Shown piece by piece: positions 49,103-55,279 of a stretch of DNA of 64,000 bases. Made by a program: the position numbers and the translations under genes. Below the pieces are notes generated by a model. That model had not been told where the DNA came from. It worked only from the letters and a program-made list of their open reading frames with translations, and ran no database searches. The DNA lies in contig NZ_JNLJ01000001.1 of assembly GCF_000703045.1 (NCBI RefSeq), positions 186,001 to 250,000 of the forward strand. The letters are read 5' to 3'. Each line of letters begins with the position of its first letter. Position 1 is the stretch's first letter. Source of the DNA: Persephonella sp. IF05-L8. GTDB lineage: Bacteria; Aquificota; Aquificia; Aquificales; Hydrogenothermaceae.

Positions 49103-49123
49103 AAAGGGGCAAAAGCCCCTTTT
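49103..49123. terminator. Bidirectional terminator between rlmN and the NiSOD gene
   Basis: AAAGGGGC, loop AAAA, GCCCCTTTT; A-rich before and T-rich after, so it can end transcription on both strands. Same GGGGC-loop-GCCCC core as three others in the window. Confidence 0.88.
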
Positions 49124-49126
49124 ATA

Positions 49127-49609
49127 TTAATGATGATGGTCTTTATCTTTTTTGCCGGTATAAAGTTCCTCAAATTCTTTTAACAGCTCAATCAATTTCT
49201 GTGTATATTTTGTGTCAACATTCTGTTTAACCTTCATAGCATAGAAAGAAAGCTGATGGATAAGCTCTACTTCTCTTAGATACTTATGATATTTATCTTT
49301 GTTTTCTGGACTAACAGGCTTTATTCTCTGGGTGAAAAAATACTGCCAAAGAATTTTTTTAAATTTTTCTGCATGCTTGTCCTTGTTTATTACCCATCTA
49401 ACCAGCTGATTTTTTGAATAGGCATCTGTTTTTTTGCTTAACTCCTTGATTTTGCTTATGGATTTATCCATAGTAGCTATGTACTCGTAAAGCAGTGTAA
49501 ACCTCGCCCCATCATCATAAATTCCACAGGGAATTTGGCAATGAGCATAAACATTGGTAGCAAAAAAACTACTAAAAACAATACCCAAAACCATAACAAA
49601 CTTTTTCAT
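49127..49609 (-). CDS. sodN: Nickel superoxide dismutase with Sec signal peptide
   Basis: Dismutates superoxide using nickel held by an N-terminal hook. 160 residues. Residues 1-22 form a signal peptide ending VYA; cleavage there would leave His23-Cys24 in HCQIPCGIYD, a perfect match to the HCxxPCGxY hook of NiSOD. The helix with LVRWVINKDKHAEKFKKILW and the YFFTQRIKP segment matches the core of the Streptomyces enzyme. The tail is His rich (DKDHHH). The start follows AGGGAGGTTCTAAT. No separate maturation protease gene is in the window. A periplasmic location is inferred. Confidence 0.9.
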   Translation of the reverse strand: MKKFVMVLGIVFSSFFATNVYAHCQIPCGIYDDGARFTLLYEYIATMDKSISKIKELSKKTDAYSKNQLVRWVINKDKHAEKFKKILWQYFFTQRIKPVSPENKDKYHKYLREVELIHQLSFYAMKVKQNVDTKYTQKLIELLKEFEELYTGKKDKDHHH

Positions 49610-49658
49610 ATTAGAACCTCCCTTTTCTTTTCAAAAATACAGATTTATCTGGCAGGGT

Positions 49659-49664: not shown

Positions 49665-49700
49665 ACTAAAATCATAAATCCTACATTTATAAAACAGTGT

Positions 49701-49730
49701 TTGATTTTTTTATGCTCCCTCAATTATAAT
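49701..49730 (+). promoter_or_regulatory. Putative promoter of acnB
   Basis: TTGATT (49701-49706), 18 bases, TATAAT (49725-49730), 40 bases before the acnB start. Good match to a primary sigma-factor promoter. Confidence 0.6.
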
Positions 49731-49770: not shown

Positions 49771-52362
49771 ATGAGTTTTTTAGAAGAATACAGGAAACAT
49801 GTTGAAGAAAGAGCAAAACTTGGAATTCCACCATTACCACTTAACAAAAAACAGGTTGAGGAGCTTGTAGAACTTCTTCAACAGGTTCCAATAGTTGAAG
49901 AAGAGTTTCTTATGGACTTATTCCTTAACAGAGTTCCTCCAGGAGTTGATGATGCAGCATTTGTAAAAGCCAAATTCCTTGCTGACATCATTGAAGGCAA
50001 AGCAAAATCCCTTGCTATAACACCTGTTCATGCTGTTCAAATACTTGGAACAATGCTCGGTGGTTACAACGTTGAACCACTCGTAAAGGCACTTTCACAC
50101 AAAGATGAAGAAATTGCAAAAGAAGCTGCAAAGGCTCTTAAAAATATTCTTCTTGTATATGACTACTTTAATGATGTTGTTGAACTTGCAAAAGAAGGAA
50201 ATAAATATGCACAGGAAGTTTTAGAAAGTTGGGCTAACGCAGAATGGTTTACATCAAAAGAACCACTTCCAGAAAAAATAACTGTTACAGTTTTCAAAGT
50301 CCCAGGGGAAACAAATACAGACGACCTTTCTCCTGCAAGAGAAGCTTCAACAAGAAGTGATATTCCGCTACACGCACTTTCAATGCTTCAGGCAAAAATG
50401 CCAGATGCTATACAAAAAATTCAAGAACTTAAGAAAAAAGGCCATCCAGTTGCTTTCGTGGGTGATGTTGTTGGAACAGGTTCTTCAAGAAAATCTGCAA
50501 CAAACTCTCTTATGTGGTGGATAGGTGAAGACATTCCTTACGTTCCAAATAAAAGAAGAGGTGGTGTTGTAATAGGTGGAGTTATAGCTCCAATTTTCTT
50601 CAACACATGGGAAGACTCTGGTGGACTTCCAATAATAGCTGATGTTTCAAAACTTGAAACTGGAGATGTTATAGATATCTATCCATACGAAGGAAAAATT
50701 GTTAAAAATGGTGAAGTTGTTGCTACATTTGAGCTTAAGCCTAATACACTTCCAGATGAAGTTAGAGCAGGCGGAAGAATTCCATTAATCATTGGAAGAA
50801 ACCTCACAAGAAAAGCAAGAGAAGCCCTTGGAATGCCTGAAGAAAATATCTTTATCAGACCTGAGCAACCACCTGAAAAGGAAGGTGTTGGATACACACT
50901 TGCTCAGAAAATAGTAGGTAGAGCCTGTGGAATGGAAGGTGTAAGACCTGGAATGTATGTTGAGCCTCAGGTTCTTACAGTAGGTTCACAGGATACAACA
51001 GGAGCAATGACCAGAGATGAGATAAAAGAGCTTGCTGCTTTATCTTTTGGTGCTGACCTTGTAATGCAGTCTTTCTGTCATACAGCAGCATATCCAAAAC
51101 CAGCTGATGTTAAACTCCAGCTTACACTTCCACAGTTCATCATAAAAAGAGGTGGTGTATCCCTCAGACCTGGTGATGGTGTTATCCACTCATGGCTTAA
51201 CAGAATGGTTCTCCCTGATACAGTTGGAACAGGTGGAGACTCCCACACAAGATTTCCAATAGGAATATCTTTCCCAGCAGGTTCAGGACTTGTTGCATTT
51301 GCTGCTGTTACAGGAACAATGCCTCTTAATATGCCAGAGTCAGTTCTGGTTAGATTTAAAGGCGAAATACAGCCAGGTATAACAGTTAGAGACCTTGTTA
51401 ATGCAATTCCTTACTTTGCTATAAAACAGGGACTTTTAACTGTTGAAAAACAAGGTAAGAAAAATATCTTCGCAGGAAGAATTCTTGAGATAGAAGGACT
51501 TGAAAATCTCAAAGTTGAACAGGCATTTGAGCTTTCTGATGCATCTGCAGAAAGAAGTGCTGCTGCATGCACAGTTAAATTAAACAAAGAGCCTGTTATC
51601 GAGTATATCCAGTCAAATATCGCTCTCCTTGAAAAAATGATAGAAGCTGGATATCAGGATGCAAGAACACTCCAGAGAAGAATAGATAAAATGAAAGCAT
51701 GGCTTGACAACCCTGAGCTCCTTGAAGCTGACGAAAATGCTGAATACGCAGCTGTTATAGAAATAGACCTGAATGAGATTAAAGAGCCAATCCTTGCATG
51801 TCCAAACGACCCAGATGATGTTGCTACACTTTCAGAAGTTCTTGCAGATGAAAGAAGACCTAAGAATATAGATGAGGTATTTGTTGGTTCTTGTATGACA
51901 AATATAGGACACTTTAGAGCTGTTGGAGAAATCCTCAGAGGAGAAGGACAGGTTCCAACAAGACTGTGGATTGTTCCACCAACTAAAATGGACGAAAGAA
52001 GACTTGTTGAAGAAGGATACTACAATATCTACGGTGTAGCAGGAGCAAGGACAGAAGTTCCAGGATGCTCACTCTGTATGGGTAATCAGGCAAGGGTCAG
52101 AGACGGTGCTGTTGTAATGTCCACATCCACAAGAAACTTTGATAACAGAATGGGTAAAGATGCAAAAGTTTACCTTGGTTCTGCAGAAATATCTGCTATC
52201 TGTGCTATACTTGGAAGACTTCCAACAGTTGAGGAATACCACAAGTTTATGGAAGAAAAGATTGCAGGAAAAGAGGATAAAGTCTATAAATTCCTCAACT
52301 TCCATGAACTTCCTGAAGAAGAACTGGACATCCTTGTAGCTGACGCTTTATATACTTTCTAA
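49771..52362 (+). CDS. acnB: Aconitate hydratase B
   Basis: Isomerises citrate and isocitrate with a 4Fe-4S cluster; in a reductive TCA cycle it would run toward citrate. 863 residues, AcnB type with an N-terminal HEAT-like helical domain (about 1-155), then a swivel domain (about 165-370) and the catalytic part. Cluster cysteines are in the [17 protein letters not shown] and [10 protein letters not shown] segments. The start follows AGGAGAGGTGCG. It has its own promoter and terminator. Confidence 0.98.
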
Positions 52363-52540: not shown

Positions 52541-55279
52541 ATGGGAGATTTTGCTAAAAATATCACTGTAAATGGAAATAGCTACAAAATTTATAGTCTG
52601 GAAAAATTAAATCAGCTTCACCCAGGAGTAGAAACACTTCCATTTTCAATAAGAGTTCTTGCAGAAAATATTATCAGAAAATTTGATGGCAGAGTTGTTA
52701 CTGAAAAACATATAGAAGAGATAGCAACCTGGAAAAAGCGTTATGACACACCTGTGGAAATTCCTTTCCATCCTGCAAGGGTTATAATGCAGGACTTTAC
52801 AGGTGTTCCTGGGGTTGTTGACCTTGCGGCAATGAGAGATGCAGCAAAAAAGCTGGGTATAGACCCTAAAAAAGTTAATCCCCTTGTCCCTGTTGACCTT
52901 GTTATAGACCACTCTATTCAGATTGATTTTTTTGGAACTGAAGAGGCTCTAAAGAAAAATCTTGAGATGGAATACAAAAGGAATAAAGAAAGATACCAGC
53001 TTCTTAAATGGGCTCAGAATGCATTTGATAACCTGAGAATATTCCCTCCAGGAAGCGGTATTATCCATCAGGTAAACCTTGAGTATATCGCACAGGTTGT
53101 TATGAAATCTCAGGAAAATGGGGAAACTGTAGCATATCCGGACACACTCGTTGGAACAGACTCCCACACAACAATGATAAATGGTCTTGGTGTGCTTGGA
53201 TGGGGTGTTGGTGGTATTGAGGCTGAAGCTGTAATGCTTGGACAACCTTATTATATGAAAATTCCAGAGGTTATCGGAGTTAAACTGACAGGGGAACTTC
53301 CTGAAGGTGCAACAACAACAGACCTTGTTTTAACAATAACCCAAAAACTTAGAGAATATGGCGTTGTTGAAAAATTTGTGGAATTCTTCGGTGAAGGTGT
53401 TAAGAAGTTATCCCTTCCAGACAGGGCAACTATTGCAAACATGGCTCCAGAATACGGAGCAACAATGGGATTTTTCCCTGTTGATGAGGAAACTATAAAC
53501 TTCCTAAAACTCACAAACAGAAAAGAAGCAGCTGAGCTTGTTGAGGCTTATACAAAGGAAAATATGCTATTCTACGACGGTAAAAATGACCCTGATTATA
53601 CAGATATTATAGAGATAGATATGTCTCAGGTTGAACCTTCCCTGGCAGGACCCTCAAGACCACAGGACAGAGTTAATCTTAAAGATATGAAAAAAACCTT
53701 CATAGACTTGCTTAACTGTAACTACAACAGAGAAATTGATATAAAAGAAATCACAGCCTTTGAAGATGAAGCAGGCAAAGATATGGAAATTGGCGAATGT
53801 AGAATACACAAAGGTAAGAAAATAGCCAAAATCAATCTTGATGGTGAGGAAGTAGTTATTGGAGATGGCTCGGTTGTAATTGCTTCAATAACTTCCTGCA
53901 CAAATACCTCTAACCCTTCTGTTCTAATAGGGGCTGGTCTACTTGCTAAAAAAGCTGTTGAAAAAGGTTTATCAGTCAAACCTTATGTAAAAACATCCCT
54001 TGCCCCCGGTTCCCGTGTTGTTGAGGGATACCTGAAAAAAGCAGGACTGCTTCCTTATCTGGAAGCTTTAAGATTTCATATTGTTGGATTTGGTTGCACA
54101 ACCTGTATTGGAAACAGCGGTCCTTTACACCCAGAAATAGAAAAAGCGATTAAAGAAAATGACCTTATTGTATCCGCAGTTCTATCAGGAAACAGAAACT
54201 TTGAGGCACGAATTCACCCTGATGTGAAGGCAAACTGGCTTGCTTCTCCATTACTGGTCGTTGCCTATGCAATCGCAGGTAGAACAGATATAGACCTGAC
54301 AACAGAGCCTATAGGCAAAGACCCAAACGGAAATCCTGTATATCTGAAGGATATCTGGCCTTCTCAGGAAGAGATTAAACAAATCATAAATCAGGTTCTG
54401 GATGAAAAAGTATTTGAAGAAAAATACAAAGATATCCTTCTTGGAGATGAATACTGGCAGGCTCTTGAAGCTCCTACAGGAGAAACATTTGAATGGGACC
54501 CAGCATCTACATATATAAGAAAACCTCCTTACTTTGATAACTTTACAGTAGAAGTTAATCCTCCTACCGATATCAAAGGAGCAAGGGTTCTTGAACTGCT
54601 TGGAGACAGTGTAACAACTGACCATATCTCCCCTGCAGGTAAAATCCCACCAGAATATCCAGCAGGAAAATATCTCCTTGAACATGGGGTTCCAGTTGAG
54701 GAGTTTAACTCATACGGCGCAAGAAGAGGAAATCATGAAGTTATGGTAAGAGGAACTTTTGCAAATGTTCGTATCAAAAACAAACTGGTTGCACCAAAGG
54801 AAGGTGGATATACGCTGAAATTTCCTGAGAAAAAAGAGATGTTTGTTTATGATGCAGCAGTTGAATATGCAAAAGAAGGAGTTCCTCTTATTGTTCTTGG
54901 CGGAAAAGAATACGGAACAGGTTCTTCAAGGGACTGGGCAGCAAAAGGAACACAGCTTCTTGGTGTTAAAGCAGTAATTGTTAAATCATTTGAAAGAATA
55001 CACAGGTCTAACCTTGTTGGAATGGGAGTTTTACCACTGGTGTTCAAAGAAGGAGAAGGCTGGGAAGAGCTGGGACTTGATGGCTCAGAAACTTATGAGA
55101 TTATCGGTATAGAAGATATGAAACCTGGAAAAGAATTAATTGTAAGAGCAACAAAAGAAAATGGTGAAATTGTAGAATTTAAAGTAATCTCCAGACTGGA
55201 TACTGTAGTTGATGTTGAGTATTTCCAAAATGGTGGAATACTGCCAATGGTTCTGAGAAAAATAATCAGAGAAAGTTAA
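52541..55279 (+). CDS. acnA: Aconitate hydratase A (AcnA type)
   Basis: Second aconitase, 912 residues, of the IRP/AcnA type with the swivel domain at the C-terminus. Motifs are RVIMQDFTGVPGVVDLAAMRDA read in parts, GTDSHTTMINGLGVLGWGVGG, the cluster cysteines in TSCTNTSNPSVL and GFGCTTCIGNSG, and the C-terminal EYGTGSSRDWAAKG with the catalytic Ser. The start follows GAGGAGATGAGCC. The two aconitases share little sequence and have separate promoters. AcnA types often serve under stress in other bacteria; here the role is not shown. Confidence 0.97.
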   Translation: MGDFAKNITVNGNSYKIYSLEKLNQLHPGVETLPFSIRVLAENIIRKFDGRVVTEKHIEEIATWKKRYDTPVEIPFHPARVIMQDFTGVPGVVDLAAMRDAAKKLGIDPKKVNPLVPVDLVIDHSIQIDFFGTEEALKKNLEMEYKRNKERYQLLKWAQNAFDNLRIFPPGSGIIHQVNLEYIAQVVMKSQENGETVAYPDTLVGTDSHTTMINGLGVLGWGVGGIEAEAVMLGQPYYMKIPEVIGVKLTGELPEGATTTDLVLTITQKLREYGVVEKFVEFFGEGVKKLSLPDRATIANMAPEYGATMGFFPVDEETINFLKLTNRKEAAELVEAYTKENMLFYDGKNDPDYTDIIEIDMSQVEPSLAGPSRPQDRVNLKDMKKTFIDLLNCNYNREIDIKEITAFEDEAGKDMEIGECRIHKGKKIAKINLDGEEVVIGDGSVVIASITSCTNTSNPSVLIGAGLLAKKAVEKGLSVKPYVKTSLAPGSRVVEGYLKKAGLLPYLEALRFHIVGFGCTTCIGNSGPLHPEIEKAIKENDLIVSAVLSGNRNFEARIHPDVKANWLASPLLVVAYAIAGRTDIDLTTEPIGKDPNGNPVYLKDIWPSQEEIKQIINQVLDEKVFEEKYKDILLGDEYWQALEAPTGETFEWDPASTYIRKPPYFDNFTVEVNPPTDIKGARVLELLGDSVTTDHISPAGKIPPEYPAGKYLLEHGVPVEEFNSYGARRGNHEVMVRGTFANVRIKNKLVAPKEGGYTLKFPEKKEMFVYDAAVEYAKEGVPLIVLGGKEYGTGSSRDWAAKGTQLLGVKAVIVKSFERIHRSNLVGMGVLPLVFKEGEGWEELGLDGSETYEIIGIEDMKPGKELIVRATKENGEIVEFKVISRLDTVVDVEYFQNGGILPMVLRKIIRES

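Follow-up and report, generated by a model that had tools for sequence, protein, structure and literature searches.

A predicted exported nickel superoxide dismutase in Persephonella with a Sec-type signal peptide that ends directly before the nickel hook

Persephonella sp. IF05-L8 carries a gene for a putative nickel superoxide dismutase (NiSOD) that would be matured by export. In the reading that we favour, with a probability of roughly 0.8, it represents an exported NiSOD subfamily in which the Sec machinery carries the precursor out, signal peptidase I makes His1, nickel is loaded outside and superoxide is removed in the periplasm. Characterised NiSODs need the protease SodX. Export by ordinary machinery would therefore replace a dedicated protease in this vent thermophile. 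The gene lies in a window of 64,000 nucleotides, the whole stretch of DNA that was analysed, and its features are collected in Table 1. The sequence-only reading had placed the gene boundaries correctly. It had not given the strand, which is minus; the plus-strand frame is riddled with stops. The precursor consists of the leader MKKFVMVLGIVFSSFFATNVYA, followed at once by HCQIPCGIYDDG, and ends in KDKDHHH. A strong ribosome-binding site, AAAAGGGAGG, precedes the ATG. The dN/dS value against two relatives (about 86% amino acid identity) was approximately 0.09–0.10, and the gene is therefore under purifying selection. Since the hook, the signal peptide and the His-rich tail all recur in relatives, a chance arrangement is excluded.

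Table 1. Position of the sodN-like gene and its features in the window.
Feature	Position	Strand	Remark or basis
sodN-like gene	49127..49609	minus	160-aa precursor, stop codon included; PF09055 match, dN/dS
Sec-type signal peptide MKKFVMVLGIVFSSFFATNVYA, 22 aa	49544..49609	minus	predicted signal peptidase I cut between VYA and H
Nickel hook HCQIPCGIY, mature residues 1-9	49517..49543	minus	conservation
Mature enzyme, predicted four-helix bundle	49130..49543	minus	AlphaFold2 and Foldseek
His-rich C-terminal tail DHHH	49130..49141	minus	recurs in Aquificota signal-peptide NiSODs
Ribosome-binding site GGGAGG	49617..49622	minus	seen just upstream of ATG
Terminator-like hairpin	49103..49122		between convergent rlmN-like gene (plus) and sodN (minus)

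The protein matched the Pfam profile PF09055 (Sod_Ni) with 105.1 bits (E 5e-30; gathering score 25). Its score against the SodN equivalog TIGR02753 was 54 bits, below the curated cut-off of 90. The other signal-peptide NiSODs tested scored 32–46 bits, and classical SodX-linked NiSODs 155–183. Therefore, as judged by these profiles, the Persephonella protein is a member of the Sod_Ni family, yet of a divergent subfamily. HCQIPCGIY fits the NiSOD pattern H-C-x-x-P-C-G-x-Y and is predicted to stand at the mature N-terminus. Residues H1, C2, P5, C6, G7, I8 and Y9 of the hook are invariant in the 17–18 aligned sequences. An AlphaFold2 model of the mature part, calculated from an alignment of 17 mature sequences with the plasmid-record row left out, had a pLDDT of 89.6 and a pTM of 0.82. 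Hook residues 1–5 fell below a pLDDT of 50, as an apo monomer might well show. In a Foldseek search of the PDB, the best 16 matches were all NiSOD structures with a probability of 1.00, and the next one was an unrelated helical protein with a probability of 0.87. The E-values of the NiSOD matches were modest (0.007–0.06), which small helical bundles commonly give, and identity over the fold was 13–19%. The mature part is thus predicted to fold like Streptomyces NiSOD, and the identity proposed from the letters alone is backed by both the Sod_Ni profile and the predicted fold. At the sequence level the likeness to PDB entries is faint: a NiSOD was matched only at E 0.35, and the subfamily profile matched none, so that the structural comparison gave the clearer signal. 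Glu17 and Arg47, residues with roles in Streptomyces NiSOD, are seemingly not conserved in the alignment with the Persephonella protein.

The leader has the properties of a Sec and signal peptidase I substrate: a charged n-region (KK), a hydrophobic core with a mean Kyte-Doolittle value of 2.72 over 10 residues, small residues at –3 (V) and –1 (A), and no lipobox. A twin arginine was found in none of the compared leaders, and Tat export was rejected on this ground. The cut site was predicted from hydropathy, the (–3,–1) rule and conservation. Residues 13–35 hold four positions compliant with the rule, and only the one between residues 22 and 23 is normally spaced after the core and leaves the hook intact; cleavage before His23, as had been suggested, is the fitting choice. 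The 19 distinct Aquificota leaders of this type (20 genes) carry one to three positive charges in their first six residues. Their hydrophobic cores are uncharged, with mean values of 2.4–3.5. At –3 the Aquificota leaders have A, S, T, V or G and at –1 mostly Ala (17 Ala, 1 Ser, 1 Thr), and the predicted cut falls directly before HC in 19/19. A plasmid-borne homologue from Ilyobacter has Leu at –3 and is otherwise laid out alike. Therefore, the signal peptide ending exactly before the hook, first noticed in the host protein, is a conserved trait of all signal-peptide-type relatives. Three classical SodX-linked leaders (G077, Novosphingobium and Nonomuraea) in contrast have no hydrophobic core and carry charges in its place (mean 0.1–0.4 against 2.4–3.6), and they likewise end in AxA before HC. 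Because both leader types end alike and their cores differ, the two routes seem to differ in the leader core rather than in the cut site. SodX-like proteins themselves weakly match signal peptidase I models.

The absence of SodX had been left to a genome search. No SodX was found in the host genome, which is 100% complete. The best match there to TIGR02754 scored 21.9 bits, covered the last third of the model and sits in the tail of signal peptidase I, which itself scored 190 bits to PF10502 and 178 bits to TIGR02227. No Peptidase_S24 was found in the complete genome either. Hence sodX is neither beside sodN nor elsewhere in the genome. Three SodX-like proteins whose genes adjoin a classical sodN were also made into a profile, which was run against 41 genomes of the host's family. 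The sole strong match was in the relative G077 (E 1.8e-42, a value partly due to the profile including G077's own sequence); the others were weak, partial and in longer open reading frames. G077 serves as a natural control, since it has one NiSOD of each type. The end of its classical sodN, with a charged and non-hydrophobic leader, is overlapped by a 99-aa SodX-like open reading frame. Its signal-peptide NiSOD is on a separate contig, with no SodX-like open reading frame in the stretch read. The SodX-like open reading frames adjoining classical sodN genes (L037:3486-3851, L038:2605-2970 and L002:1940-2236) scored 44–54 bits against the TIGR02754 cut-off of 63.25, and this curated cut-off likely misses real SodX proteins.

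The Sec translocon carries unfolded proteins, and therefore nickel should bind after export. The NiSOD precursor would cross it unfolded. The general signal peptidase I would then cut between VYA and H, and the cut itself would yield the free N-terminal His1, whose alpha-amine and imidazole are required in NiSOD. A His at +1 is acceptable to signal peptidase I: TEM beta-lactamase, for one, begins with His. CopC and LPMO are cases of signal peptidase substrates with His at +1 as well (PMC12537917). After cleavage, the enzyme would fold and then bind nickel outside the cytoplasm, perhaps with the help of the His-rich tail. This tail, pointed out in the host protein at the outset, is conserved in the Aquificota homologues: all of their signal-peptide NiSODs end in His, with 1–5 His (mostly 2–5) in the last 12 residues. 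It is absent from SodX-linked classical NiSODs, and in the Ilyobacter protein His is near the C-terminus rather than terminal. Recruitment of nickel by the tail is our guess. A parallel is given by periplasmic CuZn-SODs, unrelated in fold and metal, which are Sec-exported, protect the periplasm and in some cases have His-rich extensions proposed to recruit metal.

Other explanations were weighed against this one. A second, unrecognised protease could trim the exported protein to His1, or signal peptidase could cut elsewhere and an aminopeptidase expose His1. Classical NiSOD does need a dedicated protease (PMC3919588, PMC8346466), and a protease of an unrecognised kind could escape a homology search. 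On the other hand, all relatives have a permitted signal peptidase site immediately in front of His1, the genome has neither SodX nor an S24 peptidase, and the genes flanking sodN (rlmN and aconitase) are not protease-like. We therefore regard additional trimming as improbable. Retention of the leader as a membrane anchor, or a lipoprotein form, would mean that His1 is never free. The short hydrophobic leader and the Cys at +2 could be taken in this sense. However, His precedes the Cys, so that there is no lipobox and the lipoprotein was rejected, and the (–3,–1) rule is obeyed in every homologue; a retained leader is very improbable.

A further possibility concerns function. The exported protein could bind nickel or copper within a NiSOD fold and act as a metal carrier or sensor instead of a SOD. 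Its divergence from SodN and its His-rich tail are in line with this, and a role in carrying metal has been proposed for other secreted proteins that start with His (PMC12537917). Yet the hook residues known to matter in NiSOD (His1, Cys2, Pro5, Cys6 and Tyr9) are invariant, and the Persephonella genomes with NiSOD lack Fe-SOD, as expected if the protein serves as a SOD. A non-SOD role is thus considered unlikely, and the exported NiSOD is kept as the preferred reading.

Neither an Fe/Mn-SOD nor a CuZn-SOD was found in the host genome, which has one superoxide reductase (SOR) without a leader. The simplest reading is a division by compartment: the exported NiSOD would clear superoxide arising in the periplasm, and SOR would handle cytoplasmic superoxide. 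In Persephonella, seven genomes have NiSOD without Fe-SOD, two have Fe-SOD without NiSOD, and five, most of them incomplete, have neither; outside Persephonella, six genomes of the family carry both. The fuller proposal, a NiSOD lineage in which Sec and signal peptidase I replace the protease, the His tail aids loading outside, the enzyme is the host's sole SOD and the task is split with SOR, is given about an even chance. Some Fe/Mn-type SODs of relatives have twin-arginine leaders (TRRDLLKG and DRREFIKN; L031:1096-1833 and L032:1474-2208). By their leaders, SODs of this family may be exported by two distinct routes.

Of 136 Aquificota genomes, 19 carry Sod_Ni genes; these number 21 in total, 20 with a Sec-type leader and one without. 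In the host's family, NiSOD is present in 18/41 genomes. Therefore, the statement that NiSOD is unusual in an Aquificales-like thermophile holds at the level of the phylum, whereas within the family the enzyme is common. The contig scan gave only four near relatives (three under the title Persephonella, one under Aquificota), and no NiSOD relatives were found in viral contigs. The plasmid search gave one further signal-peptide NiSOD, that of Ilyobacter, and two classical controls. When a tree was built from the mature domains, the signal-peptide NiSODs were split from the classical ones with 100/100 support, on only three classical rows and with some long branches. Two draft genomes outside Persephonella (L007 in G073, L006 in G007) have Persephonella-like NiSODs on short contigs, which may reflect bin contamination or transfer.

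SodX processing has been described for Streptomyces and cyanobacteria (PMC3919588, PMC8346466). The classical NiSOD with SodX (Streptomyces and marine cyanobacteria; TIGR02753/TIGR02754) shares with the Persephonella protein HCxxPCGxY, a predicted four-helix bundle and the requirement for a free His1. The classical enzyme has a charged, non-hydrophobic leader cut by SodX, which is usually encoded next door. The Persephonella protein differs by its Sec signal peptide, the lack of SodX, the His-rich tail and, ahead of the K-P motif, a longer loop. In Roseiconus lacunae, the signal peptide of NiSOD WP_230780104.1 ends in ASA directly before His. It was the seed for 'signal strapping' by Franco Cairo et al. 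2025 (PMC12537917), and the search retrieved many NiSODs. Signal-peptide NiSODs have thus already been seen in another phylum. The parts of that paper on this protein use it as a search seed and do not discuss SodX, maturation, Aquificota or host SOD inventories. No description of a NiSOD maturation route through export and signal peptidase was found in the open-access papers covered, and an earlier mention elsewhere is possible. Among secreted N-terminal-His metalloproteins (LPMO, CopC, DUF4198 and HupE-linked 'anglerases'; PMC12537917), signal peptidase also exposes a metal-binding His1; these differ in fold and metal site and have no dithiolate hook. A HupE-like open reading frame, recognised by eye, is upstream of sodN in Novosphingobium (L037:2283-2876), and its leader ends in ALA before HPGHEHK. 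From its sequence, it is a candidate for another N-terminal-His protein near a nickel enzyme.

In ten cyanobacteria, sodN without sodX has been read as possibly unusable (PMC8346466). If export suffices, a missing sodX would not mean an inactive enzyme, and the hydropathy of the leader would predict the route. The question is also raised of how a dithiolate nickel site gets loaded outside the cytoplasm. Besides, the protein may provide a heat-stable NiSOD that is simple to make by periplasmic expression.

The sodN gene stands alone between two genes, convergent with an rlmN-like gene, a name read off its sequence, and divergent from aconitase B. No nickel-related link was found in either flanking gene. 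The terminator-like hairpin in Table 1 is one found against 0.3 expected in shuffled sequence. A conserved palindrome upstream of sodN, ATCAAACANTGTTTGAT (window 49689-49705), was considered as a sodN operator and rejected, since it apparently belongs with the aconitase gene that diverges from sodN. It has 11 matches in the host genome and none for the reversed control, with up to two mismatches allowed and palindromic sites counted on both strands. The sites, in the window and at loci L040, L041, L043, L044, L045, L046 and L047, adjoin genes for aconitase B, a monomeric isocitrate dehydrogenase, a ferredoxin oxidoreductase, a porin and a regulator of the IclR family. They possibly form a regulon of the IclR type that is centred on the reductive TCA cycle. 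Two differing aconitase-like genes are adjacent (window 49771-52362 and 52541-55279). One is of the AcnB type, and the other encodes 912 aa and is aconitase-like by eye.
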